Source: a virus. From it: a DNA stretch of 47,132 nt. Position numbers and translations under genes: made by a program. The notes below the pieces were generated by a model. That model worked only from the letters and a program-made list of their open reading frames with translations, ran no database searches and was not told where the DNA came from. The stretch is taken from IMG/VR virus record IMGVR_UViG_3300025141_000006, positions 1 to 47,132 of that record; one strand, 5' to 3'. Below, piece by piece: positions 1 through 47,132 of this stretch (position 1 is the first letter of the stretch; each line of letters opens with the position of its first letter).

Positions 1-127
1 AGGGTGTTCCGATTCGGACGATGATTCCGAAGAAGCGAAGAGCGGGAACCAGTTCTGTAGTACAGATCAAGAATTATTTTTTATGTAAGTTTTTTCCACA
101 CAAGAAGGGGACGACTTATGCGCACAC
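1..127. repeat. Terminal direct repeat, left copy (circular-assembly overlap)
   Basis: Bases 1-127 are identical to 47006-47132. The repeat lies inside the large terminase gene and the reading frame continues perfectly across the join. A repeat of exactly 127 bases is the overlap expected when an assembler with k-mer 127 closes a circle, so I read it as an assembly signature of a circular or circularly permuted molecule rather than a biological terminal repeat. Confidence 0.9.
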
Positions 128-1523
128 GGACGCTGATACGCGAAACATTTTCAAGATTGCGAAGCGTGTGCATGAGCATACTGGAAATGACGATGCTCAC
201 GTTGGGGCTACTAGCATACAGTTTCATCACGATTCTGTTTATGAGTGTCGCACTGCTGGTGGTCGTAGTGGCACTTCCCATGGTGACGATATTGATTATA
301 TGCACATTTCAGAAGTCGCTTATATCGAAAATGCGATGGAGACGGAGGGGGATGCGATTGGGGAGATGATTCAGGCGGTGATTTTTCAGCCTCACACGAT
401 GATTGATTTTGAGAGTACGGGTAGTGGTCCCATCGGCGATTTTTTTGATCGTTGCAACGCCGCTAAGGCGGGAGAGAGTAATGCCAAGTTGATATTTTTG
501 CCTTGGTATATTGATGATAATTATCGTTTGGAGCCGCCGAAGAAGTTCAAGATGACTGAGGATGAGATGGCCTTGGCGCGGAAGTATAGGTTGGATAGGG
601 GTCAGGTGTATTGGTTTCATTGCAAGCGTAAGGACTTTACGAACATGGGTAGTTTTCGTCGGAGTTACCCGACGAAGTACGAGGATTGTTTTGCGGTGGG
701 TGAGGGGTTGGTTTTCCCTCAGTATGACAGCGAGAAGAATCGTGGTGAGGCGAGTTTCGCAGGTGGTGTGACGTATCGTAGTATAGACTGGGGTGATACG
801 CGGGAGCATCCGTTTGTGTGTGTATGGTTGAAGCACTGGCCGGATCGGAGGCAGGGGTTTTTATTGAGTAAGAAGAACGGGTGTGACTTCATGGATGTGG
901 AGTTTCGGAGTTACAATCGGAAGGATAAGACGGGTTTACCGACGAAGAATACACGGGCTGACAATGATCATTCGTTGGATGCGTTACGGGCGATGGTGAT
1001 GAGCAGGCGGTTGACGGGTTTGGTGTGGGTATATCGGGTATGGACTGATGACGGGAAGTTGAGTCCGGAGGAGCGGGCATTGGAGATTCATCGGTTGAGT
1101 GGTTGGGAGTGTCCGGAGGGAGTTGCGGAGACTGATTTGTGGAGGTGGTATCGTGGTTTGAATGGAGAGGGGGTGGAGATCACGGTGGCGGACAGGGGCA
1201 GGCCGGACGCGATCCGGCAGTTCAATAAGTGGGGGATACCGACGATAGCGAATCGGAAACCTCCGAAGACTCGTCAGGGTGAGAAGGAGGACGGGATTTT
1301 TATGATCCAGGCGCTTCTCAGTGGCGGGAGTCCATTTGAGGCTCCGACTCGGAATGAGGGTAGGGAGGCGGCAGATCGGGTGGTTGCGGCATGGGAGCGT
1401 AAGCGGCCTGGGTTTGTGGATTTGATGGACGAGGAGATGGGCGAGATGGAGGAATTTCGGCGGGAGGAGCAGGCGGCGGTGATGGCGGAGCCGGACGAGT
1501 ATGCTCCGGATGGTTTTCAATGA
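1..1523 (+). CDS. terL: Large terminase subunit, C-terminal 507 residues (continues from 46831)
   Basis: This is the larger part of a 565-residue protein that starts at 46831 and crosses the circular join. It is the ATP-driven motor and headful nuclease that packages DNA into the prohead. Full-length numbering: a deviant Walker A (IPKKRRAGTSS, about 67-77), a Walker B-like segment (IDYMHISEVA, D157 and E163), then an RNase H-like nuclease domain. The nuclease acidic motifs are SIDWG (D321), DNDHSLDAL (D379, D381, D385) and ADRGRPD (D456). In ordinary terminases the DxxxDAL motif lies last, after the ADRGxPD-like strand. Here it comes before it, so the domain looks permuted. The stop at 1521-1523 lies in the loop of a 9-bp hairpin. 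Confidence 0.92.
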   Translation, partial: GVPIRTMIPKKRRAGTSSVVQIKNYFLCKFFPHKKGTTYAHTDADTRNIFKIAKRVHEHTGNDDAHVGATSIQFHHDSVYECRTAGGRSGTSHGDDIDYMHISEVAYIENAMETEGDAIGEMIQAVIFQPHTMIDFESTGSGPIGDFFDRCNAAKAGESNAKLIFLPWYIDDNYRLEPPKKFKMTEDEMALARKYRLDRGQVYWFHCKRKDFTNMGSFRRSYPTKYEDCFAVGEGLVFPQYDSEKNRGEASFAGGVTYRSIDWGDTREHPFVCVWLKHWPDRRQGFLLSKKNGCDFMDVEFRSYNRKDKTGLPTKNTRADNDHSLDALRAMVMSRRLTGLVWVYRVWTDDGKLSPEERALEIHRLSGWECPEGVAETDLWRWYRGLNGEGVEITVADRGRPDAIRQFNKWGIPTIANRKPPKTRQGEKEDGIFMIQALLSGGSPFEAPTRNEGREAADRVVAAWERKRPGFVDLMDEEMGEMEEFRREEQAAVMAEPDEYAPDGFQ

Positions 1524-2121: not shown

Positions 2122-2343
2122 ATGTTTCAAACAAAAAACAACCTTGCATTCGTTCCCGTCAACACTGACCAGAAGGTCATTGGACTCCAAGCCCCTGACG
2201 AAGACGGGAATATGCACACATTGTATCTGGATGAGCAGATGGTCACTTATCTGTTGACGCAGTTTTTTGATGTCGACGGGTTGGCTCATCATCTTAAAAT
2301 TCATTCAAGCGGTAAGTACCAAGTAAGCAATAAGCGATGGTAA
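2122..2343 (+). CDS. Hypothetical protein, 73 aa
   Basis: A small soluble protein of unknown function, starting MFQTKNNLAFVPVN. The start at 2122 was chosen because an AAAGGGA element lies just upstream and because the frame before it runs through the hairpin terminator. No motif was recognised. The stop is 14 bases upstream of the oxidoreductase start, so the two genes are likely co-transcribed. Confidence 0.55.
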   Translation: MFQTKNNLAFVPVNTDQKVIGLQAPDEDGNMHTLYLDEQMVTYLLTQFFDVDGLAHHLKIHSSGKYQVSNKRW

Positions 2344-2357
2344 AAAGGAGAACCAAA

Positions 2358-3449
2358 ATGGATGAGCAAAAAGACCCAATCAGGGTGGTATTGGTGGGAT
2401 GTGGGAATTGGGGATCGAAGTTGCTGTTGAAGATGCTGGATATGTCCGATATTCAGGTCGCAGGGGTGATTGATCCGGTGGAGGGGCGTTTGGCCGAGGT
2501 GGCGAAGTTGGTCGACAGCCAGCGTGGAAAGCCTAAAGTGCGGAAAATCACGCAGTATTTGGATTCAATAGATGCATTATCATTATGGGATAGCGTAGAC
2601 GCCTTAGTTATTGCTAGCCCAAGCGAAAACCACCTCATATGGGCGGAATTTGGTATTAATGAAGGCAAGCATGTTTTTGTTGAAAAACCAATAACAAAGT
2701 CTTTGGCTGAGTCCATTCAGCTTCAGAAAACCCAACTCCGAAGGGTTATGGCTGGGAAACCTGACAAGGTCTTCATGGTGGGTCATGTCACTCATTATGA
2801 TCCTGGGGTGGCGAAGTTTTTCGAGCAGATACATAGTGTTGTAGTGCCGAAGGGTCCGGTCAGGATTACTCGTTCGGGGCGATGGATGGGCGATCAGCAG
2901 CGGTTTGATTTCAGTAAGGAGGGTGCTGAGTCATTTTCTGATATCTGGTGGGCGTTGGCTCCGCATGATGTGAGCAGCATGTTATTTCACATGGGCGTGC
3001 CGGATAAGAGTGGTGTTTTGTTGTATTCTGACGGTCGGGTGCAAGGGACATTCAAGATCGGCAGTCGGGATGTGTCGTTGACAGTATATAGGAGTGATGA
3101 AGAGCGGGTTCGGATGTACGAGGTGGATACGGACAAGGGGCCGGTGGTTTACGACCAGTTGACCGGCGAGTTTCGGGGTTTTCAGAAGGGTGATTTGGGT
3201 GAGAAGGTATCGTTTGGTCAATACGATTCATTGCGATTGGAGTTGCGTGAGTTTGTGAAATGCATTCGATTGGGCAAGCAGCCCGAGACAGGTCTTCAGC
3301 AGGGTTTAGACACAGTTCGCTGGTTGGAGCGGGTATCGGACGATATTTCGCTTGCTTTGTATGGGAATGGTGACCATAATTCAGAAGACACCTTGACTGA
3401 GCCTGTTTTTGTCGACGGGACCAAAGAAGCGGACGATAACAATGTCTGA
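2358..3449 (+). CDS. Gfo/Idh/MocA-family NAD(P)-dependent oxidoreductase
   Basis: A 363-residue protein of the usual length for the Gfo/Idh/MocA family, which oxidises or reduces a sugar hydroxyl with NAD(P). The N-terminal Rossmann fold has VLVGCGNWG (G14, G16, G19). The family EKP motif is present (VEKPITKS, E109-K110-P111) with its catalytic lysine. The C-terminal domain has the downstream D195 and H203-D204 in an IWWALAPHD segment. The overall pattern resembles nucleotide-sugar dehydrogenases of O-antigen synthesis such as the WlbA type, but the substrate cannot be read. The start at 2358 follows AAAAGGAGAACC. The stop overlaps the next start by 8 bases. Such an enzyme inside a virion module is unusual, and it may supply a sugar for surface or virion glycosylation. 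Confidence 0.88.
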   Translation: MDEQKDPIRVVLVGCGNWGSKLLLKMLDMSDIQVAGVIDPVEGRLAEVAKLVDSQRGKPKVRKITQYLDSIDALSLWDSVDALVIASPSENHLIWAEFGINEGKHVFVEKPITKSLAESIQLQKTQLRRVMAGKPDKVFMVGHVTHYDPGVAKFFEQIHSVVVPKGPVRITRSGRWMGDQQRFDFSKEGAESFSDIWWALAPHDVSSMLFHMGVPDKSGVLLYSDGRVQGTFKIGSRDVSLTVYRSDEERVRMYEVDTDKGPVVYDQLTGEFRGFQKGDLGEKVSFGQYDSLRLELREFVKCIRLGKQPETGLQQGLDTVRWLERVSDDISLALYGNGDHNSEDTLTEPVFVDGTKEADDNNV

Positions 3450-4355: not shown

Positions 4356-6761
4356 ATGGCGTTTGAAGATCAGCCCACCGGGGTAACAAGTTCGATTGAG
4401 GATACCGATTGGAGTGATCCGAAACAGGTTGCACGGGCGGCTCGGATGATCACTGCCGAGGATCAGTATAAACGTGACGCCGAAACGGCGGCGCAGATCA
4501 ACATCGAGTTTGTCGCTGGCAACCAGCATTTGAAGTGGAACAAAGCCAAGCGTCAGATGGAGCGGGACTATTCAAGACCTGCTGGCACAATTATCAGAAC
4601 CGACAATAGAATTCGACCGGCATTGATTCAACGGGCGTCAAGGTTGACGCGGCGTGATTCGGTGTGGTCGTTACCGCCTGATTCGGACGACGCCAGCGAT
4701 GTGGTGGCGGCGCGGGTCGGTACGGATGTATTGAAGTATTATTATCTGCACGGGTTAAAGATGCCCGCAGTTATAAGGAAGGCGATCAACTGGGCAGAGA
4801 TGTCGAAGGTGGCATTTTTCTGTCCGATGTGGGACGCCAATGCGGGTGAGGATATTGAGGTCACGCCGAACGACTTGACGCCGTTTGGTTTTGATCAGCC
4901 GTTGGAGCAGCAGGACGATTTCACCCAACAGGGGCGGGACAGATTCGCCGAACTGTTTGGAGAGGATCAGTTGTTACAGGGTCAGGTAGACCGCAAGGCT
5001 GGCGATGTGGCGATGGATGTCGCCAACATATTTGAGATTGATTGGTGGCCGTTCGACATTATTGATTTCAAAGACGCTGCGGTGATGACTCGCAAGCGTC
5101 ACCGGACGAACACTGAGATTGCGATGCAGTTGGGTGTTGATCTGGAAGAGGCCAAGCGGATTGCCGGTGCGTCGTCAAAAAGAGAAGACTACCGTCGCCG
5201 GTTAAACAACAATTCTCAGGCGAATGATTCATTGGATTATGTGACCGGTTCGGTTCCTCATCATGAAGACGAGGAAGGCGCTCAGGTCATTGAGGTGTAT
5301 CACTGTGACGACCCGTTTGTCCCTGGTGGATTGAGCGCGATCGTGATCGGCGACATGGCGTACAAGATGGGTCCGTTGCCGTTGAGTCAAACCAAGAGAA
5401 TCCCGATCGTACCTTTATTGGACAGTCCGATCGAGGGCAAGTTGTTAGGCACTTGTGAAGTGGATCAGTTGCGGAGTATGCAACAGGAAGCGAATCAGGT
5501 ATTGAGCGACGAAGCGAACCACCGCAAGAACATGACTCACCATACGGTTGTCAGGTTCGTGGGTGACGGCATGAACCGCAAGGATTTCCAGCGGGTGGCG
5601 GGTAAGATCCCTGTCTGTGCCGATCCTGGGTTAATGCCCCAAGTGTTGCGTCGTCCGGAGATGGGTTCTGATGGCAAGTTCGCGTATGAGCGTGCCGGTC
5701 AGGCGATGGCGGATCAGAGTGGGGTCAGTAATGTTGATCTGGGTAATCCGAGTGGCAGTGGCATTAAGTCCGGAGTTGCGATCGCGGAAGTGAAAGAGAT
5801 CAGTGATTTGCGGATGTTGACCCTGGCATCGCAGTTAGATGAATCGGTATCGGAAGTGGGATCGATGATCCTTGAATTCCTGGCGTTGAATCTGGTTGAC
5901 GAGAAGGTGGTATGGTTGATCGGGGAGAATAATCGCAAGGAGACAGTGAAGTTCAACGGCGAGACATTATTTCCTATTGCGTTTACCGGTCAGAACAATC
6001 CAGCGCTGGTTCATGTGAATTCATTCAGAAATTTACCCAGTAGTAAAGGTCAGTTGTTTGCAACGGTCGAGGCGTTGACCGGCGGGCAACCGATTCTTGA
6101 TCCTGTCGGGGATCGGGCTTTTATTTCTAGGGCGTTGGGTCTGGGAGAGGATTTGAGTAACCGGTTGGATCGCGGGCGTCAGGACGAGGCGATCGCTGAG
6201 AGCGAGCAGACTATCTGGACGAACGGGGGGCAAGTGGGGATGCCCAACCAGACCGATGACAATCAGGTTCATCTGAGGTTAATGAAGAAGTGGATGAGTT
6301 CCGAGCAGTATCGTCAGGTCGCTTCAACCAATCCGGAGATCGCTCAGGAGATCAATGAGCATTATCACATGCATGAAGTGGGTGTGTTAAAAGAGCAGTT
6401 AAAGGTTGAGTATTTGAAGCGAGAGGCCGATTTGGCGTTGTATCAGGAGACGGTGGCGCGGAAATTACAGGCGGCGCAGCAGTCAGCGATGCAGGCGGCA
6501 GCTCAGGGCGGTGATCCGCAACAGGTATTAGAGGATCGGGTAGCAGAGATCAAGATGATGTTCCCTGGTCCATTGTTTGCGGTCAGCGGCGGCGATTCGG
6601 ACGGCGGGATGCAGGAGACTGAAGGTGGAGATAGAGGGAAGCCGATCCCCGACGCCAAAGCGCCCAAACAGGGTGACGAGAAGAGAAAAGGTAAGGGTGG
6701 TGCGAGGCTGATTTCACAAGGACCGAGACAACCGGTCACCGGCCAGACTCAACCAGCGTAA
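4356..6761 (+). CDS. Portal protein
   Basis: An 801-residue protein with the features of a large podovirus-type portal, the dodecameric ring at the head vertex through which DNA is packaged and ejected. It lies between terminase and scaffold, as expected. The N-terminal third has the wing and clip type pattern (EDQYKRDAETAAQINIEF, RPALIQRASRLTRRDS). The middle has a long helical stem-like region and a glutamine-rich crown segment follows (QAAQQSAMQAAAQGG, about residue 710). The C-terminal tail is low complexity, glycine/lysine rich. The start at 4356 lies three bases after the previous stop with only a weak purine stretch before it. Confidence 0.82.
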   Translation: MAFEDQPTGVTSSIEDTDWSDPKQVARAARMITAEDQYKRDAETAAQINIEFVAGNQHLKWNKAKRQMERDYSRPAGTIIRTDNRIRPALIQRASRLTRRDSVWSLPPDSDDASDVVAARVGTDVLKYYYLHGLKMPAVIRKAINWAEMSKVAFFCPMWDANAGEDIEVTPNDLTPFGFDQPLEQQDDFTQQGRDRFAELFGEDQLLQGQVDRKAGDVAMDVANIFEIDWWPFDIIDFKDAAVMTRKRHRTNTEIAMQLGVDLEEAKRIAGASSKREDYRRRLNNNSQANDSLDYVTGSVPHHEDEEGAQVIEVYHCDDPFVPGGLSAIVIGDMAYKMGPLPLSQTKRIPIVPLLDSPIEGKLLGTCEVDQLRSMQQEANQVLSDEANHRKNMTHHTVVRFVGDGMNRKDFQRVAGKIPVCADPGLMPQVLRRPEMGSDGKFAYERAGQAMADQSGVSNVDLGNPSGSGIKSGVAIAEVKEISDLRMLTLASQLDESVSEVGSMILEFLALNLVDEKVVWLIGENNRKETVKFNGETLFPIAFTGQNNPALVHVNSFRNLPSSKGQLFATVEALTGGQPILDPVGDRAFISRALGLGEDLSNRLDRGRQDEAIAESEQTIWTNGGQVGMPNQTDDNQVHLRLMKKWMSSEQYRQVASTNPEIAQEINEHYHMHEVGVLKEQLKVEYLKREADLALYQETVARKLQAAQQSAMQAAAQGGDPQQVLEDRVAEIKMMFPGPLFAVSGGDSDGGMQETEGGDRGKPIPDAKAPKQGDEKRKGKGGARLISQGPRQPVTGQTQPA

Positions 6762-6780
6762 TTTTTTTAATATTTTATCC

Positions 6781-6809
6781 TTGACAGGATTTCAGGGATT
6801 CGCTAAAAA
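6781..6809 (+). promoter_or_regulatory. Sigma70-type promoter upstream of the scaffold gene
   Basis: TTGACA at 6781-6786, a 17-base spacer, and TAAAAA at 6804-6809 (four of six matches to TATAAT). It lies in the 138-bp gap between portal and scaffold and could boost expression of scaffold and capsid. The -35 box is perfect and the -10 box is weak. Confidence 0.5.
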
Positions 6810-6899
6810 CCAATAGTAACACCTCTGGGTAAGTCAACCCAACGCTCCAACACCTTTAAAATTAAGGCGTTTGTCCCGCCGTCTCTTCGAGGTTTCAAT

Positions 6900-7784
6900 A
6901 TGTCGCTTGTCGATGACTCGCAGGATCAGGCCCAGGGTGAAATTGATTTTTCAGCCGGTAAGTCAGGACAGATTCAGCCGATCGACGACGGTTCCACTCT
7001 GGAGCCGGAAGAACTTAACACGGGTCCAGTTCAAGCAGAGGAGCCGGTTGTTGAGGAAGCGCAGACCGAGGTAGAAACCGAACAGGTTGAAGCCGAACCT
7101 GTCGCCGAAACCACCCCCGATTACGAACAGTATTTCCAGAACCAGAACGCCCAGATGCAGCAGATGGGCGAATACATGCAGACGCTGGGCAACGAGATTC
7201 AATCTCTCCGACAGCCAGCCCCGGCGGCAGAAGTTGAACCAGAGCCGGAAGAAGTTGACGACGCATGGTTGCGTAAGCGGATCGGCAAACTGGAACAACA
7301 AGTTAACAGTACTGCCAATGGTGTTGACGGGTTAAACGGCACGATCGCCGGAATCCAGAGTAACGCCGCGTACAACAACGTCGTCACTAATACCGCCTCC
7401 ACCATTCAAAAAGTTATCGCCAACCACCCGCAGACCAAAGGTGAGAACAATGCTCTCGCCAATGCGTTACAGCAGGAGTTGGCTGAGAAAATCCTTCCGT
7501 TGATCGACGCGCGGAAGGCTGATGGATCAATCGTCAATGTGACAGCCCAGAATGTGACCCAGGAAGTGAACAGCCAGTTCGCCAAAGCGTTGAAGCGTTT
7601 TGGCCCATTGGTGGCAAATGCCAGGATCGCTCAGACCGAGCAGCGTGAAGTCAACGCTGCTAAGGCGATCGGTTCTCCCGGTGGGCGAAAACCGAAGGCT
7701 TCAAAGAAGCCTGACAAAACGCTCGACATCGACCACATGGCTGATGAGTTCGCCAGTGCCTATGAGGAACTTGGCGGGAATTAA
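6900..7784 (+). CDS. Scaffolding protein
   Basis: A 294-residue acidic, glutamine-rich helical protein directly before the major capsid gene, the classic position and composition of an internal scaffold that templates prohead assembly. The N-terminal half is very rich in Glu, Pro, Val and Gln (EEPVVEEAQTEVETEQVEAE). A coiled-coil region follows (YFQNQNAQMQQMGEYMQTL and KRIGKLEQQVNS). The C-terminus has a basic stretch (GGRKPKASKKPDK) typical of capsid-binding tails, then a short acidic helix. The start at 6900 follows GAGG a few bases upstream. Confidence 0.8.
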   Translation: MSLVDDSQDQAQGEIDFSAGKSGQIQPIDDGSTLEPEELNTGPVQAEEPVVEEAQTEVETEQVEAEPVAETTPDYEQYFQNQNAQMQQMGEYMQTLGNEIQSLRQPAPAAEVEPEPEEVDDAWLRKRIGKLEQQVNSTANGVDGLNGTIAGIQSNAAYNNVVTNTASTIQKVIANHPQTKGENNALANALQQELAEKILPLIDARKADGSIVNVTAQNVTQEVNSQFAKALKRFGPLVANARIAQTEQREVNAAKAIGSPGGRKPKASKKPDKTLDIDHMADEFASAYEELGGN

Positions 7785-7799
7785 TAAGGAATTATACCA

Positions 7800-9134
7800 A
7801 TGGCAGACCTCAATAGATCAGCAATCGATGTCCTGTTAATGGACAAGTATCCGTTTGGATCGGAAATTTTCAGTCAGGTTCAGCGGGGTACTCCGTTAAA
7901 GGATTTGATTCAGCGCAAATTGCCACCGATGGCAAAAGTCGACCATGAAGGTCGCCGCGTGCTGGTTCCTTTGCATACCAAAAGAAACCCCAATGTCACG
8001 ATGGCAATCGGTCCTGACGGCGGTTTCGCGACTCCCGGCCACCAGAAGTATGCCCAGGCGATCTACAACGTCTCGACCGTCGTTGGCGGTTTCGGGGTGG
8101 ACGGGATCGTCTTCGACGTTGCGTCTGGTGGTGGCAAGAGTGTGGTACGGCAGGTTCCACATGAACTGTCGATGCTGATGGAGAACATGAATTACAAGTT
8201 GAACTGGCTGATGCATCAAGACGGTTCAGGGTTGTATGCCGTTTGCGGCACAACCACCAACAGCAACACAATAAGTCTGGCAAGTGGCAGCGACATGACG
8301 TTCCTGCAAGTGGATGCCGAGGTCGACATTCTTGACTTGACCACTGGCGCATTAGCGGGTGGCAACACTCCACAAGCCAGCAAGAAGCAGACACTGGTAA
8401 TTACTGCCCGCGTCACTACTTTGGGTAGTGAATCAATTACCGTTGAGCAGGCAGACGGCAGTCAACCGGCGATCACCACTTCTTCAGCCCACGGCGTTTA
8501 TGAGCATCAGGGCCAGGGTTTGCAGATTGACGGTCTGGGAATCATCACCAGTACCCAAAACCCCACTAATTGGGGTGATCAGAATGCCCAGTACGGTGCG
8601 ATTGATCGTGCCAGTGCTGACAATGATTTCTGGAAGGGCAACCAACAGGACGCTCAAGATTCCGCTGGGAATAATGGTGTTCTTTCGATTCAGGAACACA
8701 TCCAGCCGTTGCACAATACCATTCGCACTCGCCGGGGTCAGTTTGCCGGAAACCAGAAACGGTTACTGGCACTGCTTGGCAACTCGCAGGACACCATCCT
8801 GAAGAACCAGATGTTGCATGACATGCGGACGACGGGTATCCGTCGCCGGTTGAAGGGTGGCAACTGGGAAGGTGTTGAGTTTGATCAGACGGTATTCGTA
8901 CTCGATGTGACCGCTCCTACCGACAAGATTCGTTTCCTCGACGCCGAGGCGACATATCGCTACATCATGCGGGAGTTCTATTTTGACACCAAACCGGGAT
9001 CGCAATGGGAGCGCGCCACTGATTCAGTGAGCAGCCGCCCGATCGAGCGATACCGAACATATGTATTGGGCCGACAGCAGTTGTTGACCACCAGTTGTCT
9101 GGCTCAGGGTGAAATTGTCAACCTTGCTACCTAG
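7800..9134 (+). CDS. Major capsid protein
   Basis: A 444-residue protein placed immediately after the scaffold, with the length and mixed alpha/beta pattern of an HK97-fold capsid protein. The N-terminal part (LMDKYPFGSEIFSQVQRGTP) and the long central helix (HELSMLMENMNYKLNWLMHQ) fit an N-arm plus spine helix. The C-terminal part carries strands and an aromatic/arginine-rich end (REFYFDTKPGSQWERATD, RYRTYVLGRQQLL). Start ATG at 7800 with AAGGA upstream. Family assignment rests on position and pattern, not on an alignment. Confidence 0.8.
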   Translation: MADLNRSAIDVLLMDKYPFGSEIFSQVQRGTPLKDLIQRKLPPMAKVDHEGRRVLVPLHTKRNPNVTMAIGPDGGFATPGHQKYAQAIYNVSTVVGGFGVDGIVFDVASGGGKSVVRQVPHELSMLMENMNYKLNWLMHQDGSGLYAVCGTTTNSNTISLASGSDMTFLQVDAEVDILDLTTGALAGGNTPQASKKQTLVITARVTTLGSESITVEQADGSQPAITTSSAHGVYEHQGQGLQIDGLGIITSTQNPTNWGDQNAQYGAIDRASADNDFWKGNQQDAQDSAGNNGVLSIQEHIQPLHNTIRTRRGQFAGNQKRLLALLGNSQDTILKNQMLHDMRTTGIRRRLKGGNWEGVEFDQTVFVLDVTAPTDKIRFLDAEATYRYIMREFYFDTKPGSQWERATDSVSSRPIERYRTYVLGRQQLLTTSCLAQGEIVNLAT

Positions 9135-9147
9135 AAGGTGATTTGTT

Positions 9148-9654
9148 ATGGGTTATGGAGATAAAGGTAGGGGCGGTCAGGTCACTGTAGATCAATGCAG
9201 TGGCGCTGTTCGCGTCCAAACAGCATCAACCGTTGAGGTTGATCTCTCGTCAGCGGAAGCATCTCAGGGAATTCCGATTCCCGATTTGTTCAACGCTGAA
9301 GCGGATGTTCTGGTGTTTGATTGTAATTTCATTTACACCGAAACACCCGCCGCCAGCAGCACAATCAATGTCGGGACACTGGCAGACCCCAATGCGTTAA
9401 TTGCCGGATTCAGTACTGATGACGGTAGTGCCGGTGGGACGAATGCCGTGGCCAAAGTTATTGGCGAGTCTGAGAGTTTGAACGCCAGTTTTGCCACGAC
9501 ATTAATGAACACCCTCGAAGAGGACAGTATGAAAGCCCGGCGATTGCCGCGAATACCGAAGGGTACGCCGTTGTTCGTTCAGAACTCGGCATCCGGCGGC
9601 GCAGGACAGGGCTTCTTTGTATTCAGTTATTTTGTTAAGGAACCGCGAAATTAG
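9148..9654 (+). CDS. Probable head decoration or structural protein
   Basis: A 168-residue protein 13 bases after the major capsid gene, with AAGGTGA before its ATG. It is rich in Thr, Ser, Ala and Gly with alternating hydrophobic residues, consistent with a beta-sandwich. It contains no transmembrane helix and ends with an aromatic strand (GFFVFSYFVKEPRN). Small proteins in this position in other phages are often capsid decoration or stabilising proteins. The specific family was not recognised. Confidence 0.62.
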   Translation: MGYGDKGRGGQVTVDQCSGAVRVQTASTVEVDLSSAEASQGIPIPDLFNAEADVLVFDCNFIYTETPAASSTINVGTLADPNALIAGFSTDDGSAGGTNAVAKVIGESESLNASFATTLMNTLEEDSMKARRLPRIPKGTPLFVQNSASGGAGQGFFVFSYFVKEPRN

Positions 9655-9678
9655 AAATCGCTTTAGGAGTCAATAGCT

Positions 9679-10596
9679 ATGGGAAATCCAATTGGGTACA
9701 CTCAGGAACAAACCAAAGACTTGCAAGAGCAGTTGAATATTGCCGCTCTGGTTGGGTTTCTTCCCGAAAAGATCGTGTTCGTCGACAGCGGCAACAGCGC
9801 ATCGACCAACGGTGGAACCGCTCGCAACGATGCGTTGCCGACGATTGACGCTGCGGTTGGCAAGTGCAGCGCCAACGACGGTAATGTCATCTACGTCATG
9901 CCTGGACATGCCGAAACAGCAAGTACCCAGGTCACGATGGATGTGGCTGGCGTCACTGTTCTCGGTGCTGGTGTTGGTCGTTCGCGACCGGCGATTACCG
10001 CGAATGCCAGTGCAGTTGACTTGTTCAACGTCACTGCCGCCAACTGTAAGTTGATGAATCTGCGATTGGTTGGTGCTGCGTCCAGTACGGCGTTGCTCAA
10101 CCTTGCCGCCACCGACTTCTCGGCAGAGAACTGTGTGTTTGAGCATGGAGCTGCACCGCTCCAAGCGGTGACTGTTGCTTCCGGTTCAAGCCGCTTCAGT
10201 TTCACCAATTGCCGATGGGTTGGAACTGCTGATGGTCCGGACACCGCCCTTATTGTCGAGGCGTCAAGTGTCGATGAGTGGGTGATTCGTGACTGCGACT
10301 TCAATTACGGAACTTTTGGTTGCGACCTTGGTTGCATTCTTTCCAGCAAAAGAAATTCAGGTTACATCATCGATAGATGTGTTTTTGTTGGCATGGATAC
10401 TGTGGCGATCGATTTCAATTCCTCCAGTTCAGCAAACTGTGATGGAATTATTTCCAACTGTGACATCGCGATGGGGGCTGATACCGCCAATATCGACACA
10501 GCGATCGACGCGGGCGGTTCCGGCATTGTGAATACTTTCGGGACTGACAACCCCGACTCGGCTGGCTCACGGATTCCGGTCCAGACGCCTGCTTAA
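9679..10596 (+). CDS. Right-handed beta-helix (pectin-lyase-like) virion protein
   Basis: A 305-residue protein with repeated short strands of the parallel beta-helix type: VIYVMPGHAETA, VTVLGAGVGRSRPAI, CKLMNLRLVGAA, FSAENCVFEHGA, FSFTNCRWVG, WVIRDCDFNYG, YIIDRCVFVGMD and GIISNCDIAMG. The recurrent N-C-x-F and D-C-x-F rungs place cysteines at regular spacing. This fold is common in tailspikes and polysaccharide-binding capsid proteins. Its place beside the capsid genes and before a glycosyltransferase suggests a head-attached or surface glycan-binding protein. No catalytic residues could be assigned. The start at 9679 follows AGGAGTC. Confidence 0.68.
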   Translation: MGNPIGYTQEQTKDLQEQLNIAALVGFLPEKIVFVDSGNSASTNGGTARNDALPTIDAAVGKCSANDGNVIYVMPGHAETASTQVTMDVAGVTVLGAGVGRSRPAITANASAVDLFNVTAANCKLMNLRLVGAASSTALLNLAATDFSAENCVFEHGAAPLQAVTVASGSSRFSFTNCRWVGTADGPDTALIVEASSVDEWVIRDCDFNYGTFGCDLGCILSSKRNSGYIIDRCVFVGMDTVAIDFNSSSSANCDGIISNCDIAMGADTANIDTAIDAGGSGIVNTFGTDNPDSAGSRIPVQTPA

Positions 10597-10611
10597 TGAG
10601 GGAGGTTTTTT

Positions 10612-10758
10612 GTGGCTAAAGAAACTGACCCCAGAGTATGTCCAAGTTGTAATAATCACACACTTGACAGTAAAGGTGTGTGTGGCCACTGTGGACATTC
10701 AAAGAAACAACAACAGAAACCGGAACCGACTAGAACGGAGACAAAGCCCAAACGATGA
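10612..10758 (+). CDS. Small zinc-ribbon protein, 48 aa
   Basis: A very short gene with GTG start, preceded by GGGAGG at optimal spacing. The product has a CPSC pair (residues 10-13) and a CGHC pair (24-27), forming a compact zinc ribbon, followed by a basic, Gln/Lys-rich tail (SKKQQQKPEPTRTETKPKR). Its stop overlaps the glycosyltransferase start (ATGA at 10755), so the two are translationally coupled. The intact cysteine pairs and the coupling argue that it is real. Function unknown; it may partner the glycosyltransferase or bind nucleic acid. Confidence 0.7.
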   Translation: MAKETDPRVCPSCNNHTLDSKGVCGHCGHSKKQQQKPEPTRTETKPKR

Positions 10759-11522
10759 AAATTGCTGTTGGATATCCTTGGTCTTCGCCGTTTGTATTTA
10801 CGAATTTTGTCGATTCAATTCTGAACCTCAAAGCCCCAGAAGGTTGCGAGGTTCGGTATTTTAGGGGTAGTGGATGGAGTCCATCCCGGCGACACGTTCA
10901 TGTATGTGAACAGGCGATTAAATGGGGTGCAGATTATATCTGTATTCTGGGAACTGATCAGGTTTATGAGAATGACATGTTGTGTCGTCTCTACGACCAT
11001 GTGAAGTCAGGCCGAGCAGAAGTAATATCGGCGTTGGTTCCGGTTAGAGGTTATGTCGCATGGCAACCGATGAAACCGTTCCAGCCAATGGCTTGGAGAT
11101 TTAAGGCCAATAAGCCTGAAGAGTATCGGTCTTATCGCTGTATGGACTTAGATGGAGACATGCTCGAAGTTGTAAGTCCAGGCCAGGGCTTACAGAGGAT
11201 CAACTTCATCGGCAGTGGGGTTTTAATGTTCCATGTGGATCATCTTCTGGCACTGAAGAAGCCTTGGTTTTATGAAACAGTTACAGTTGAAGATCAGACA
11301 AGAACTGCCAACATGGATTGTACATTTGTCTGGCGGTTACAACATGAAGCATATGCGTTTGTAACTTGCGACACAGATATCAAAGTGAAACATTCACACA
11401 TATTTGATATTGACGAAACATACAGTGAACGATTTGCTGATTGGACTGAACCGGGAAACGGAAATGCGGAAGTTTGTGAATTCGAGTCCATTTATGAAAA
11501 ACAGGCTATGACCTTGAAATAG
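10755..11522 (+). CDS. GT-A type glycosyltransferase
   Basis: A 255-residue protein with a GT-A fold pattern. The N-terminal strand is KIAVGYPW. A nucleotide-sugar and metal-binding segment follows (GADYICILGTDQVYENDML), where T67-D68-Q69 takes the place of the DxD motif. An acceptor-site segment FIGSGVLMFHVDHL and a downstream DCTFVWRL (catalytic-loop-like acidic residue) follow, then a histidine-containing VKHSHIFD near the end, a common metal ligand position in GT2-type enzymes. The enzyme probably transfers a sugar to a protein, DNA or surface glycan; the acceptor is unknown. It is coupled to the zinc-ribbon gene upstream and ends before a strong terminator. Confidence 0.75.
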   Translation: MKIAVGYPWSSPFVFTNFVDSILNLKAPEGCEVRYFRGSGWSPSRRHVHVCEQAIKWGADYICILGTDQVYENDMLCRLYDHVKSGRAEVISALVPVRGYVAWQPMKPFQPMAWRFKANKPEEYRSYRCMDLDGDMLEVVSPGQGLQRINFIGSGVLMFHVDHLLALKKPWFYETVTVEDQTRTANMDCTFVWRLQHEAYAFVTCDTDIKVKHSHIFDIDETYSERFADWTEPGNGNAEVCEFESIYEKQAMTLK

Positions 11523-11544
11523 AGTATATTTTTGATCTGTCATT

Positions 11545-11579
11545 AAAGGCCGGTTGGCTAGGCCAACGGGCCTTTTTTA
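11545..11579 (+). terminator. Rho-independent terminator after the GT-A gene
   Basis: An AAGGCC-G-GTTGGC arm pairs with GCCAAC-G-GGCCTT around a three-base loop, followed by a run of T. It closes the capsid to glycosyltransferase unit. The next gene begins 14 bases later. Confidence 0.85.
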
Positions 11580-11592
11580 TTAGGAAAAAAGA

Positions 11593-12438
11593 GTGAGAAT
11601 AAAACAGGCAAGAGTGTCGCCGTGGACAGGGTTTTTCATAGGGAAATTCCATAAACACCACGGGTTTGATGATTACTCCGACAAATCAGCCCCCGCTGTG
11701 TTTATGGGCTGTTATGGAGCGAGAGACAGGTTTGCTATCGCCAGACACTCTAGTGATATTATTCTCGTATGGGGCGGAACTGATGTGGTCATAACGGAGA
11801 AATTTGGAAGGAATCATCCGTACAATGATGTTCTTTTCCGAAAAAATGTTTTCCATATAGCAAAGTCAAATTTTATTTCCAACACCCTTTCTAGAATGGG
11901 AATCAAACATTTCAAGGTTCCTGTTTGTTCTACTGTAGCAGGATTATTCAATCCAGTTCCGAGAGGGGACAAAGTTTATAGTTACATACCAGAAAGATCG
12001 AAAAAAAAATATGGGCATGATATTTTTATTAAGGTTAAAGAACAATTACCAGACATAGATTTTGTTATAGCTGATGGAATTAAAAGTGTCCCATTTGAAG
12101 AAATGGTAAACATGTATTCAAAATGTTTCATTGGACTTCGCCTAGTTGAACATGACGGGATAAGCAATACTGTTGTTGAACTTGGCCTTATGGGAAGAAG
12201 GGTTGTTTGGAATGGTGACACTCCAAATGCTATACCGTATGAAAATATTGAGGATATAGTCAGGGCTATTAAAAAAGAGAAAAACAGAGTGGATGACAAC
12301 CAATTAGTCTCTTCAGCGGTTAGAAATCACATAGACATAGGCGACGATTGGAAGGACACATCTTTCTATAGAAAGGAACGGGATGACACTGATTCAGGGA
12401 CGATCAATGAGTTACTGGCGAGAGAAGCAGTGGCTTGA
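11593..12438 (+). CDS. GT-B type glycosyltransferase-like protein
   Basis: A 281-residue protein with the C-terminal signature of GT-B (GT1/GT4-like) transferases. The segment FEEMVNMYSKCFIGLRLVEHDG resembles the sugar-nucleotide binding region, and ISNTVVELGLMGRRVVWNGDTPN has the conserved E and G residues of that fold. It starts with GTG at 11593 after AGGAAAAAAG. The gene is visibly more AT-rich than its neighbours and lies directly after a terminator, which suggests separate acquisition. It probably acts on the same glycan pathway as the GT-A enzyme and the oxidoreductase at 2358; that link is inferred. Confidence 0.68.
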   Translation: MRIKQARVSPWTGFFIGKFHKHHGFDDYSDKSAPAVFMGCYGARDRFAIARHSSDIILVWGGTDVVITEKFGRNHPYNDVLFRKNVFHIAKSNFISNTLSRMGIKHFKVPVCSTVAGLFNPVPRGDKVYSYIPERSKKKYGHDIFIKVKEQLPDIDFVIADGIKSVPFEEMVNMYSKCFIGLRLVEHDGISNTVVELGLMGRRVVWNGDTPNAIPYENIEDIVRAIKKEKNRVDDNQLVSSAVRNHIDIGDDWKDTSFYRKERDDTDSGTINELLAREAVA

Positions 12439-12994
12439 AAACGGGACACAGTTACCTCTCAACCAGGGACATGTCGGCGATTTGCCGTCCAGTACATGGA
12501 TCGGCGGCGATGTGCCGTGGGTATTACAGGAAAAGATTCGGAGAATCGATCCGGACTTTAAGATCATCTACGACCGTCTCGCTGCGCCGGATTCCCTTTC
12601 CCCTTCCCATTTTCTGATCCGGATCACGCGGCGGGGCGGCACGCCTGCGGCATCGAGTTTCGTTCTGGAATTTCCGCTGCAATACGACATTGAGATGGAA
12701 TGGCCCCACGGTACTCCCCGAGCGCCAGGCGAGTGGGTGTTGGATGCGATTAAGCAGCGGTGGAAGGCGAACCTCCCCGGCGAAACCGAGGAAGAGCAGC
12801 ACGATCATCTGTTTGAGGATATCAAGAGATCGAATTGCAAACGGATGGAAGAGAACGCCAAGCCGCTGCGTGAAGCAGACGGGCATATTGAAGAGATGAC
12901 CAACGACGCGGTGAAGATGCCTGCATCCAGCAAGCGTCGGAACATCCGGCAGTACAAGCAGAAAAACGCCAAAAAGACTAAGGTTAGAGTATGA
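12383..12994 (+). CDS. Hypothetical virion-module protein
   Basis: A 203-residue protein of unknown family. It overlaps the end of the GT-B gene by 56 bases if started at 12383, where AAAGGAAC lies upstream, or by 32 bases if started at the in-frame ATG at 12407. The middle is rich in aromatic and proline residues (FVLEFPLQYDIEMEWPHGTP) and the C-terminus is strongly basic (SSKRRNIRQYKQKNAKKTK), suggesting contact with DNA or a negatively charged capsid surface. It is coupled by ATGA to the connector-like gene downstream, so a neck or head-completion role is plausible. Confidence 0.6.
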   Translation: MTLIQGRSMSYWREKQWLENGTQLPLNQGHVGDLPSSTWIGGDVPWVLQEKIRRIDPDFKIIYDRLAAPDSLSPSHFLIRITRRGGTPAASSFVLEFPLQYDIEMEWPHGTPRAPGEWVLDAIKQRWKANLPGETEEEQHDHLFEDIKRSNCKRMEENAKPLREADGHIEEMTNDAVKMPASSKRRNIRQYKQKNAKKTKVRV

Positions 12995-13695
12995 ATATTG
13001 GCCGAATGAAAGAAGATTTACGAGAGGCGGTAGATGATCTGCGGGGACGCAGATTCACTGATGGTCATTTGATGTCTGCTTTGAACCGTGCTGTTAAGTC
13101 AGTGGGTCTATTTGTCGCTAATCACCAGCAAGAGCGGAATTATCTGCCGAATCCCACGGGTCCGGTGACGGTAACGACTGATGGTTCTGCTCGGAGTTTC
13201 ACTGTCAGTGCTGCTAATTTTCTGAAGATTTGGCGGGTGATACGGACAGACACTGATAAGGATGAATCGACTAAATTATATCGACTGACCGACGAACATT
13301 TGTACACATATGGATCAGGGTACGATGGATACGGACGGGTGTTGTATGCGATTTCCATCATTGACGACGACAATATCAAAGTGTATTTCCCGGTCATCCA
13401 CAAGAGCGGGATCGTGTTGTCGATCGACTACGTTTCCAAAATCAAAAACCTTGGAAGTGGCCCTGATAACGATGTGGCGGATTCCGATGGTTACCCAGGT
13501 CTTCCGGATGTGATGCATGACTTGGTCATTCTGTATGCTGCAAGACGGTTATTGAGCAGCGACGACGCCAACTACGCGGGCGTCCGCGAACAGTACATAG
13601 AAATGCGGGCTGAAGTACAGCGGTTGATGTACTCACCCGAGGGTGACGAACCGAACGAAACTTACGATCCTGAAGAGGACTTACAGATATATTGA
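12991..13695 (+). CDS. Head-tail connector / adaptor-like protein
   Basis: A 234-residue protein overlapping the previous stop by ATGA. The N-terminal helices (MKEDLREAVDDLRGRRFTDGHLMSALNRA) and C-terminal helices (HDLVILYAARRLLSSDDANY) flank a beta-rich centre. That is the arrangement seen in podovirus adaptor proteins and in phage connector proteins that begin with a short helical bundle. It precedes the large tail protein, consistent with a ring joining portal and tail. The assignment rests on pattern and position. Confidence 0.6.
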   Translation: MNIGRMKEDLREAVDDLRGRRFTDGHLMSALNRAVKSVGLFVANHQQERNYLPNPTGPVTVTTDGSARSFTVSAANFLKIWRVIRTDTDKDESTKLYRLTDEHLYTYGSGYDGYGRVLYAISIIDDDNIKVYFPVIHKSGIVLSIDYVSKIKNLGSGPDNDVADSDGYPGLPDVMHDLVILYAARRLLSSDDANYAGVREQYIEMRAEVQRLMYSPEGDEPNETYDPEEDLQIY

Positions 13696-13705
13696 AGGTG
13701 TAATT

Positions 13706-14071
13706 ATGGCAGATTTAGTAACAATCGATTTTAACTTCCACTACAACACTACCAATGTTGATGAGAAGTATTCGTTCGGCCCGAAATCTTTTGCAGTATC
13801 AGCAGAAGTGTTTGTTGCGGGTGTACAGGAAATAGGAACAACCCCTGAAGCGATCGTGATGGGGGAAGTGTCTGTTCCTGGGTGGTCATACTGGGAAAAC
13901 CTTGATTCCACTAATTTTGTCGAAATCAATCCTGGCACAGGCGACGATGATCTTGTTCGCATGAATGCCGGTGAACCGGCACTATTTCGCTTTGCCGCTG
14001 ATGCAACAGCCCCTTTTGGAACTGCCGATACTCTCGCCTGCAAGGTCAGGTATTTCATCGCCCAGAACTAA
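13706..14071 (+). CDS. Small beta-rich structural protein
   Basis: A 121-residue protein starting at 13706 after GAAGGTG. It has alternating strand-like segments (VTIDFNFHYN, FAVSAEVFVAGVQEIG, EAIVMGEVSVPGWSYWEN, ALFRFAADATAPFG, LACKVRYFIAQN), consistent with a beta-sandwich. It lies between the connector-like gene and the large tail protein, so a tail or neck accessory role is likely. No specific family recognised. Confidence 0.62.
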   Translation: MADLVTIDFNFHYNTTNVDEKYSFGPKSFAVSAEVFVAGVQEIGTTPEAIVMGEVSVPGWSYWENLDSTNFVEINPGTGDDDLVRMNAGEPALFRFAADATAPFGTADTLACKVRYFIAQN

Positions 14072-14075
14072 TGAT

Positions 14076-17000
14076 ATGGCACGACGCAACAAGCAAAAAT
14101 TCGCCTTCAACGGCCCTTTCGGCGGGCTTAACGAACTCTCGCCCCGTTCCCGCCGGTCGATGGGACAGCCCTCGAACTCATTTAACATGGAGTTATACGG
14201 CGGATATCTGCGCCCCCGGCGAGGGTATAAGCAACTAGTCCCTAATACCACCGAATCCGATCCGATCATCAGTATGCATCCGATCCCCTCTGAAGATGAG
14301 ACGATGCATGACAACGTGATCGCCCAGATTTTTGGCGATAACACCGTAGCGTTTAAGCGGCTTGTACGAGCCGTAGAGGGAACCTCATCCGGTGGCGACG
14401 AACTGGAGACATTGACCAGCGGAACGTCTGACGGCGGTACTGCGTGGGCGTGGGACTTCTTTGGGTTAGGTCGGGCGTCTTACGCTGACTCTGGCGGATG
14501 GTCGATGATCGCGGCGGGTGGAAAGTCGCTGGGTATAATTACTGCTTTAAGAGTGGATGATACTAGTTCGCCCAATAAGCTTTACTGGTTGGACAAAACC
14601 CAAGGAACACTCAATAGATCTGACACTGATGGGTCTGACTCAGAAGTGCTATTATATGGTCTTCAATCTCCGTTCAGTTTAGCGTTAGATATCTCTAACG
14701 AAATGATTTACTTCACAGAGCCTGATGCCCATCGCATCTCCCGGTGCAAATTCAATGGCGGCGAGCATCAGGTAATCTATAACAAACAGCGTGATGGAAT
14801 ACACAGCCCACAATGGTGTGATTACGATGGAACCAATAATGAAATTTACTGGACACAACGAGGCGGAGGATCGTTTCTTAGCGGGGTTCTTAAAGCAACT
14901 AATGTTGGGGCTGGTACAATAACCCAAGTGTTTGATAAAAACACCACTGGATTACAATTAGAGAGATCATGGAGAGGAATTGCTCTTGTAGAAAACGGAG
15001 GCACAGATACGGATGTTTTCTTTGTTAGTGCTGGCAGCCATGCCGTATGGAAATATGACAAAGATGTTGATTCGGCATCGATGATTGTGGCTCTTTCCAC
15101 TCCATCCACTCGCAAAGCCTCGCCGCAGGATATAAGAATAGATGATGGCAGTAAATTATACATACTATCACCTGGACTCTACACCCATTCCAACCCTTTT
15201 TGGCGGGGATTGGATTCATCTATACATAGGTGTGACCTCGACGGCAGTAACCTCGCAACAGTTGTCAGTTTCGGCGATGAAAACGCCATTCAAGCCATAG
15301 AGTTCGATAATGCTAATAGCAAACTTTATTGGGCGCAACCAGTTCCAACGTCGTCTGTTTTTAACGCCACCCCGGCAGAACCTGTTCAAACTGAAGATAT
15401 GAATAAAATAATGGAATCTGCATCCGTTTATGCTTACAAACGCGATGGGGGTAAAAATTACTTCAGGAAAGCGGGGCTTGAAAAACCGGTTGTGCATGGC
15501 GGCGTACCAGCAATTGCCAACCGCATAAACACTTTAGAAGCCAGTGTAACTGCCTCAGTAGGTACGGTGTTCGGGTATAGAATCACTTTTTTAGACACAT
15601 TTTCAGGGTTGGAAAGCGATGGGTCTAATGAAATAGTACAAACTGATTCATTGGGCAGTAATAATACTATTGGGAGTAGATTGGCAGTCAGAGTATTTTG
15701 GAATCCACCACCAACTTTTCATGGTCATCTCGGTGGAACACCAACTGATGTCTTCGCGGATAAAGTGCGTATCTACCGGCGGGTGTTATCTCCCAGTATT
15801 GAAAACGATTGGTTGTTAGCGGAAGAACTTCCAATTGATCACGGGGAAGAAGAAACTGCGACTGCTAATGCGGCAGATGGGACGACGATACAATTACAAG
15901 ATATAGGTTGGGGTACTTCTGGCTATGCTGCGAACCAACTTGCCGGATTGACTATAGAGATTATAGACCCAGGTGCTACTGCGACTATGCCTGCCGGGGA
16001 ACGAGCAGTGATTGCGTCCAACACACAAGCTGACGAGGCTGTATGCACTATGGTTGGATCCGGTTTTTCCGATTCAGTAAGAACTGATACCAAGTATCGT
16101 ATTATTGGGTCTTGGAATGACGGCAAGGGCGCCACTGATCTCAGCACCGGCATCGTAGTGCCGGTACGGCACGGCGTGCCGCCGGTATCTAAGTACATCT
16201 GGTCGCACCGTGGGCGAATGTATTATGTCCCTGAGAATAATCGCACCCTCTGGTACAGCGAACCTGCTGACCCCTTGACTGCTCGTAGTGGAGCGGAGTA
16301 TGTCCATCAGGCGTCGGACGGGTCTGGCAACTTTGAGGTGTTGCCTGAGAAGGGGAATATCACCGGGGGGTTCAGTGATGGCGAGCAGAATATCGTCTTC
16401 ACGGAGAATGCTGCTTACGCGATCGATGACGCCAACATCGACACCGAGGGGTTACGGTTCGTCAAGATTCGCGACATGCCTGGATGTTCGTCTCATCACA
16501 CCATCGCCAATACCGACAACGGGGTGTTCTACGCCAACGATCGTGGTGTTTATTTATTCAATGGATCTGCCACAGTCAATCTAACAATTGACGTTCCACA
16601 GACATGGAAACTCATACAGAAATCTGTATGGGCTGAAAATACCGGCAACCTGAGCGATGCGATGGGGATGTATGATCCAGACATGCGCCGCTACTTCTTC
16701 TGGTTCACTCGCATTGACGATGCGGAAGGGTTGCTCCACCGTAAGAACCGGCGGGCGTTGGTGTTCTTTCTGGATGACGGCGGTGCTATTCACCCGTGGC
16801 AAACGGCTGGTGAAGGAATGCTTTCTCACGCTTGGGCCAGGAATCCTACCGGCGACATGGAAATGGTCATGGGAACCCATAACGGGAAGATAGTGAAGTT
16901 ATCGAACGAGAAGGAAGAAATCTTTACTGATGTCGGCGGTGATATTAAATGGGGTTTTCAATTGCCCCGTGTACCGACGACTGATGACACGGTCGAGCGG

Positions 17001-17261: not shown

Positions 17262-17608
17262 GCGTCCGGATCGACAAACAGTTGGTTAAACTGGCTGATC
17301 GCGATCTCATCGATATGGCGAAGAGAGTGGATGAGAATTGCTCTAGAATAGAGAGGGAATTGTTGCCCACTGGCAGCGTGATTCCATGGTGGACAGACTT
17401 GGATATTCCGGAGGGTTGGCTACTTTGTTCTCCCAATGTGGGCGGGCGTGTGTTACAAAGGGGAAAGTATAAAGCGTTGTCGATCGCGTTTAACAAGACG
17501 TTCAACGATGGATCGGAAAGCGATGATGAGTTTCGGCTCCCTGACCCTGACAACCCGCTCATTTTAGGGGTTTTGACCGCAGCACAGGTGTGGATAGTGA
17601 AAACATAG
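17258..17608 (+). CDS. Tail-collar domain protein
   Basis: A 116-residue protein coupled to the tail gene by ATGA. It contains the phage collar-domain pattern GSVIPWWTDLDIPEGWLLC followed by a YKALSIAFNKTF segment and FRLPDPDN, as found at the tips of short tail fibres. The N-terminal 35 residues are a short coiled-coil-like helix. Complete collar proteins are usually longer fibres, so this may be a small plug or a fibre tip that trimerises with other proteins. Confidence 0.72.
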   Translation: MSVRIDKQLVKLADRDLIDMAKRVDENCSRIERELLPTGSVIPWWTDLDIPEGWLLCSPNVGGRVLQRGKYKALSIAFNKTFNDGSESDDEFRLPDPDNPLILGVLTAAQVWIVKT

Positions 17609-17615
17609 GTGAATT

Positions 17616-18728: not shown

Positions 18729-18737
18729 GGTAATATC

Positions 18738-45610: not shown

Positions 45611-45640
45611 CATGCCGACCTGTCGGATAGCATGTACTGT

Positions 45641-45915
<275 letters not shown>

Positions 45916-46147: not shown

Positions 46148-46684
46148 ATGCCTAAAAAGAAGGTCAAATCGACGATGAGTGATGAGGACAAGCGGTTGAT
46201 CAATCTTGCTAGTCGCGGGGAGCTTGGGCCGGTCAAGCACATTCAGAATCAGGAGATTAAGAAGAGCGTGAAGGATTTGAAGCAATCTGCGATTGACATC
46301 CGCGCTCACGTTCTGGAGTTTTTGCGTGAGACGGGTGATTTCGGTAATGAGTTGGAGCAGATGCGGATTTTGGCTGAGGAGTTTGCGGATTCGGATGACC
46401 CGAGGACGGCGAGGAAGGCGGCGATTATATACAAGGAGATCGCGAAGATTAAGGCGAGTTGTCTGCGGGACTTTACGGCGTTTGCGGTTGAGGAGGCACA
46501 TCACGGGGTGAATGTGCAGATCAACCAGCAGATGGAGGGTAGTGGTAGTCGGAGGAATGAGATCAGTGCTGAGAAGCGGGCTATGTTGGATAAGTGGGAG
46601 AGTGAGATAGAGGTTCGTGAGGCTAAGTTTTTAGAGGCAGAGGTGGTTGAAAAGGACAAGGAGACTGAGGATGAGCAAACCTGA
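46148..46684 (+). CDS. Probable small terminase subunit
   Basis: A 178-residue helical, charged protein located just before the large terminase, the normal place for the DNA-recognition subunit. It has a basic N-terminus, central helices (IKKSVKDLKQSAIDIRAHVLEFL, ARKAAIIYKEIAKIKASCLR) and an acidic coiled-coil C-terminus. No helix-turn-helix is obvious. The start at 46148 lacks a good Shine-Dalgarno; the in-frame ATG at 46175 (after TCGACG) is an alternative. Assigned by position and shape. Confidence 0.55.
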   Translation: MPKKKVKSTMSDEDKRLINLASRGELGPVKHIQNQEIKKSVKDLKQSAIDIRAHVLEFLRETGDFGNELEQMRILAEEFADSDDPRTARKAAIIYKEIAKIKASCLRDFTAFAVEEAHHGVNVQINQQMEGSGSRRNEISAEKRAMLDKWESEIEVREAKFLEAEVVEKDKETEDEQT

Positions 46685-46877
46685 CGACACGTTGATCCGC
46701 GAGGTTTTAGCGAATCAGCAGGAGATTCACGACTTGAAGATGCGGTTGCGGTCGGCGTTACGGGTAAAGGAAAAGTTCGCGATCCATTGCAACAATTTGC
46801 AATTACAATTAGACGAATTAAGGCTCAAGGATGAACCTGTTAACAACGAAGACCAAGCCGCTTCAAATCCCGCTTAA
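46671..46877 (+). CDS. Small coiled-coil protein between terminase genes
   Basis: A 68-residue protein starting MSKPDDTLIREVLANQQEIH at 46671 behind AAGGAGACTG. It overlaps the preceding gene by 14 bases and the large terminase start by 47 bases. Predicted as one long helix (DLKMRLRSALRVKEKFAIH then NNLQLQLDELRLK) with an acidic end. It may assist terminase assembly. Unknown family. Confidence 0.6.
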   Translation: MSKPDDTLIREVLANQQEIHDLKMRLRSALRVKEKFAIHCNNLQLQLDELRLKDEPVNNEDQAASNPA

Positions 46878-47132
46878 GCAGTTTGTTAAGTGGGTGAGTG
46901 ACGGTCATGCATGGATCAAGGATCGTGAGAGTGGTCAGATCATGCCATTTGTTCCACGTTTGAGTCAGCGTTGGATCATTCAGTCATGGTTGGATCAGGC
47001 GGGCGAGGGTGTTCCGATTCGGACGATGATTCCGAAGAAGCGAAGAGCGGGAACCAGTTCTGTAGTACAGATCAAGAATTATTTTTTATGTAAGTTTTTT
47101 CCACACAAGAAGGGGACGACTTATGCGCACAC
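46831..47132 (+). CDS. terL: Large terminase subunit, N-terminal part (continues at base 1)
   Basis: The gene starts with ATG at 46831 (MNLLTTKTKPLQIPLKQFVK) and runs past the window end; the same frame continues at base 3 after the circular join. This part encodes the first ~58 residues before the repeated 127 bases, which then encode the deviant Walker A segment. The 5-prime end overlaps the preceding small gene by 47 bases; a later in-frame ATG near 46942 is possible but leaves the domain shorter. See the entry at 1-1523 for motifs. Confidence 0.88.
   Translation, partial: MNLLTTKTKPLQIPLKQFVKWVSDGHAWIKDRESGQIMPFVPRLSQRWIIQSWLDQAGEGVPIRTMIPKKRRAGTSSVVQIKNYFLCKFFPHKKGTTYAH
47006..47132. 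repeat. Terminal direct repeat, right copy
   Basis: Identical to bases 1-127. See the left copy. Confidence 0.9.

Follow-up and report, generated by a model that had tools for sequence, protein, structure and literature searches.

Non-circular permutation of the nuclease domain in a phage large terminase

Genome and terminase gene

The stretch of DNA analysed, here called the window, is a virus contig of 47,132 nucleotides (IMG/VR record IMGVR_UViG_3300025141_000006). It begins and ends with the same 127 bases (an exact direct repeat, 1-127 = 47006-47132), the pattern that assembly from overlapping words gives for a circular genome, and it probably represents such a genome in full. Since the repeat is present at both ends, the open reading frame (ORF) of the large terminase (TerL) runs from its ATG across the contig ends to position 1523, and the joined ORF encodes 565 amino acids (Table 1). 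The frame is open across 3-1523, as a preliminary description made from the sequence had stated. A portal gene lies a few ORFs downstream.

Table 1. Features of the terminase region in the window.
Feature	Position	Strand	Evidence
TerL gene, 5' part: ATG start, continuing past the contig ends at window 128	46831..47132	+	Exact terminal repeat, joined frame
Remaining TerL ORF: ATPase half followed by permuted nuclease half	1..1523	+	Open frame; similarity of the ATPase half to TerLs of phages
Segment A: linker, beta1 with motif I (SIDWG, D321 at 786-788), beta2 (HPFVCVWL)	684..854	+	
Segment C, displaced: beta5, helix, short auxiliary loop, final helix with motif III (DNDHSLDAL, D385 at 978-980)	855..1016	+	PHROG 5653 positions 128-183; canonical profile 180-198
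Segment B: beta3 (LVWVYRVW), helix, beta4 with motif II (ADRGRPD, D456 at 1191-1193), next helix	1017..1328	+	Canonical profile 80-113
C-terminal tail, without a second copy of motif III	1329..1520	+	No match to the canonical profile
Portal protein	4356..6761	+	P22_portal PF16510, E 3e-7; 47% identity with the portal next to the permuted TerL in L042
Probable small terminase subunit	46148..46684	+	Position upstream of TerL solely; no Pfam match

Almost every tailed phage has a TerL, which is one of the hallmark proteins of this group. The ATPase half of the window protein is homologous to known TerLs (tblastn against 211 phage records: at best 31% over 233 amino acids, E-values down to 4e-18). 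No Pfam family, Terminase_6C and Terminase_3C included, was matched by the whole protein at E ≤ 1 or by its pieces at E ≤ 10. A profile search of the window genome gave no other nuclease-domain match, so that this is the sole TerL nuclease found.

The two halves of the protein have different nearest relatives. For the ATPase half (window 3-860) these are TerLs of another nuclease subtype (L114-L128), for the nuclease half a group with the motif DWGASxEHPF, and judged from these similarities the window TerL also looks like a domain chimera. The 80 closest relatives of the ATPase half apparently carry other nuclease subtypes, and the dozen inspected by eye have the ordinary motif order.

Some neighbouring features were recorded. 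An oxidoreductase of the Gfo/Idh/MocA family (window 2337-3449, PF01408, E 2e-15) is encoded between terminase and portal, an unusual content for a packaging cluster. An imperfect CCTG/CCTGC repeat tract of about 280 bp (window 45640-45915) lies a short distance upstream of the probable gene for the small terminase subunit. A 16-kb contig of another record, L003 (IMGVR_UViG_3300002518_005755), is 99.95% identical to window 5703-19131 and represents nearly the same phage.

Order of the nuclease motifs

In the nuclease half, the acidic motifs follow each other as I (D321), III (D385) and II (D456) instead of the canonical I-II-III. The residue numbers given for these motifs in the preliminary description proved exact (SIDWG 319-323, GFLLSKK 344-350, DNDHSLDAL 379-387 and ADRGRPD 455-461). 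Relatives sharing motif I with the window were collected from viral contigs and planctomycete metagenome-assembled genomes by a pattern search (DWGxxxEHPF); these have the ordinary order, and a canonical profile was built from 20 of such nuclease domains. The window protein matched this profile in three pieces which, read along the chain, cover profile positions 18-40, 180-198 and 80-113. The suspected permutation of the domain was thus confirmed, the pieces matching in the order A-C-B.

The same order was found in L042 (IMGVR_UViG_3300025131_006136), a contig from another metagenome which was detected by a pattern combining motif I and motif III at short spacing. Its pieces cover profile positions 8-41, 133-198 and 45-136, so that they tile the profile and hardly overlap. 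Only the moved block matched PHROG 5653, a family of terminase nucleases with 199 profile positions (E 3e-8). As the match sits at positions 128-183 of the family profile, the block corresponds to the normal C-terminal end of the domain, which agrees with the earlier identification of the moved segment as the usual last strand and helices with motif III. The flanking pieces, proposed to join naturally without it, correspond to strands beta2 and beta3, which are neighbours in the canonical homologs.

In a reciprocal test, 13 out of 120 ORFs matching the canonical profile appeared inverted, these being all the copies of six permuted proteins, and the remainder was colinear; searched with the permuted profile, 69 canonical ORFs appeared inverted in turn. 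The inverted order far exceeds chance.

The rearrangement had been described as a circular permutation. This explanation was rejected, since A-C-B is no rotation of A-B-C, nor I-III-II of I-II-III. For the same reason the domain is a non-circular permutation in which the adjacent segments B and C, both homologous to the parental segments, have been exchanged.

Independent copies and their distribution

A misplaced block of 160 bp in the window contig, by faulty assembly or as a chimera, would produce the same motif order. The window does come from a metagenome, most homologs have the ordinary order and the independent, nearly identical contig L003 stops short of the terminase. Such an artefact is nevertheless extremely improbable, as the block is found at the same place and in the same order in proteins from other sources, all with open frames. 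The TerL of L042 is 42% identical to that of the window from end to end, and a portal gene, syntenic with that of the window, lies beside it. Four further permuted TerLs (L249-L252) were found in four Planctomycetota genomes among 392 searched; two of these TerLs lie beyond the first megabase (1 Mb) of long contigs. L250 and L251 lack the insertions seen in the window protein. Homologs showing this order, which the preliminary description had proposed to look for, thus exist in L042 and in these four genomes, and their independent occurrence rules out misassembly. The swapped order is thus a real and inherited re-wiring of a viral hallmark enzyme.

The four chromosomal copies were first detected with a two-row profile of the window and L042, and all belong to one class, of which 29 species were sampled. 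Each matched the permuted profile in one piece and over its full length (E 4e-103 or better); the four are among the rows from which this profile was built, so that the length of the match rather than its E-value is informative. Ordinary TerLs of Planctomycetota match the permuted profile with one short piece. The scans of the viral contigs, with single proteins and with A3 returned no relatives beyond L042. Three other phyla, sampled with 398, 368 and 357 genomes around a genome of Microvirga, of Kiritimatiellae and of Terriglobia, yielded no permuted match at E ≤ 1e-15; these samples contained no positive control.

In a tree built on segments aligned piecewise, in which the row of the window occupies only 42% of the columns, the six permuted proteins form one clade (support 98/93). 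A single old event suffices to explain this grouping.

L042 also encodes a gene 38% identical to that of a serine recombinase in the window (PF00239, 41925-42677, minus strand), which has an N-terminal zinc-ribbon-like CxxC...CxxC arrangement.

Active-site residues

D321, H382, D385 and D456 are invariant in all six permuted proteins, and the canonical counterparts of the three acids (D26, D109 and D203) are present in 33-34 of 34 sequences. Among the acidic residues put forward in the preliminary description, D321, D456 and the motif III residue D385 therefore hold by their invariance; D381, named as an alternative to D385, is Asn in four of the six homologs and was dropped. The acids would converge, and DNA cleavage by the domain would follow the usual metal-dependent chemistry.

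A position conserved in the canonical proteins departs from this pattern. The Glu of beta3, present in 33 of 34 canonical sequences, is replaced by Val in the window (YRVW) and by Cys in L042 (YRCY), and it is kept in the four chromosomal copies (YRELY). Because of its loss in the window and L042 the chemistry could differ there. A domain that still folds, catalytically altered or dead and kept as a structural or DNA-gripping relic while another nuclease cuts the DNA, would account for the missing Glu, and is considered improbable: D321, D385 and D456 have remained invariant across very divergent members, and the profile search revealed no additional TerL nuclease in this genome.

At motif III, two canonical relatives (L212:224-2845 and L215:3089-7069) carry inteins, with the junctions DDD/C...N/CDALRY and matches to Pfam Intein_splicing/Hint.

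Predicted structure

An AlphaFold model of the window nuclease domain, computed from the window, L042 and fragments of canonical homologs, had a mean pLDDT of 44.9 and was discarded. For the canonical relative L208, a model based on 34 sequences reached a pLDDT of 89.5 and a pTM of 0.87, with strands at 20-26, 35-42, 48-56, 103-108 and 155-158 and a final helix at 200-215. All three cut points of the rearrangement fall in loops of this model: between E35-42 and E48-56 (the beta2-beta3 turn), between H133-144 and E155-158 (before beta5) and after H200-215 (the C-terminal end). An RNase H fold could therefore survive with re-wired connections. The sheet order of this fold is 3-2-1-4-5. With this order the three cut points would share one edge of the sheet, and the connections there may be exchangeable with the core left unmoved.

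Re-wired linkers leave the geometry open, and TerL is thought to act as a pentameric ring (PMC5727402); the moved block might therefore complete the nuclease domain of a neighbouring subunit within the packaging ring. This partner swap is held to be quite unlikely, since the linkers, of about 6-10 residues, look long enough for folding within a single chain.

Proposed arrangement and origin

The reading preferred here, with a probability of roughly 0.87, is that the sole TerL found in this genome has a RuvC/RNase H-like nuclease which is non-circularly permuted, has kept its core by means of re-wired loops and goes back to a single origin. The segment normally found at the C-terminus (beta5, helix, auxiliary loop and motif III helix) sits in the beta2-beta3 turn, giving the chain order beta1-beta2-[beta5-alphaC]-beta3-alphaA-beta4-alphaB. 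The re-wired loops would probably lead to the same three-dimensional core, in which D321, D456 and D385 may meet and bind metal ions. Like an ordinary TerL, the enzyme would cut concatemeric DNA when packaging starts and when it ends.

The permuted form would have arisen once, in an ancestral phage whose descendants include the prophage-like copies in one planctomycete class. Two routes are conceivable, either the transposition of a block of about 160 bp or a tandem duplication of the part from beta3 to alphaC, after which each half lost one of its two copies. No remnant copy of a segment was seen in the C-terminal tail of TerL with the canonical profile. Short similarities at the two joins, taken earlier as a hint of recombination, did not hold, as random pairs of sites in the gene match equally well in 14-76% of trials; microhomology at the joins was accordingly rejected as being at chance level. 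A trace in the DNA is hardly to be expected there, because the event predates the split of proteins that are 42% identical.

Comparison with known systems

The canonical DWGASxEHPF TerLs (for example L208, L198 and L219, on contigs of Thermogutta/Thermoguttaceae) share with the window motif I and its flanks (DWG..EHPFVC.W), motif II (ADPSRPD) and the strand-helix-helix of motif III. They differ from it in the order I-II-III, in the retention of the beta3 Glu and in a longer auxiliary hairpin. The closest solved relatives of this canonical group, by profile and as best fold matches, are the terminases of D6E (PDB 5oe8/5oe9) and P22 (nuclease domain, 4dkw), which differ from the window TerL by the ordinary strand order with motif III C-terminal. 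The permuted profile matches D6E in separate pieces.

Among protein permutations, the non-circular kind is rarer than the circular (PMC10085705). The major capsid protein of BPP-1 has a non-circularly permuted HK97 fold, which its authors consider rare in nature; as in the window TerL, two structural elements of a phage hallmark protein are exchanged along the chain (PMC3863775). The capsid protein has another fold and lacks a detectable sequence link to its canonical members, whereas the canonical sisters of the permuted TerL are recognisable. Permuted DNA methyltransferases (Bujnicki 2002, as cited in PMC10085705) are, according to that citation, likewise enzyme domains with a changed motif order, non-circular cases included, and differ in fold and function. 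No report of a permuted TerL turned up in the open-access papers searched.

The window TerL would represent a rare non-circular permutation in an essential enzyme, and because its canonical sisters can be recognised, the route and the cost of the rearrangement are testable. As this TerL escapes Pfam, and PHROG recognises its nuclease half by only one piece, such phages may stay unclassified.

More tentatively, and with the odds judged to be rather against it, the permuted proteins could form a distinct functional motor lineage. The motif III segment and the DNA-contacting auxiliary loop would then lie in the beta2-beta3 turn, the C-terminus would be free after alphaB and the C-terminal arm re-routed. 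In the D6E TerL this arm lies near the ATPase site (PMC5727402). If the arm is indeed re-routed, the coupling of cutting and pumping may differ from that of ordinary motors.

Two annotations of other TerLs were noted. The TerL of a Manatee Spring phage (MW202785.1, L014:1057-2689) is annotated as two separate ORFs, ATPase and nuclease, and a TerL homolog of Bacteroides phage BF1-TP2 (PQ571263.1, L010:1432-3459) as a tail spike protein.
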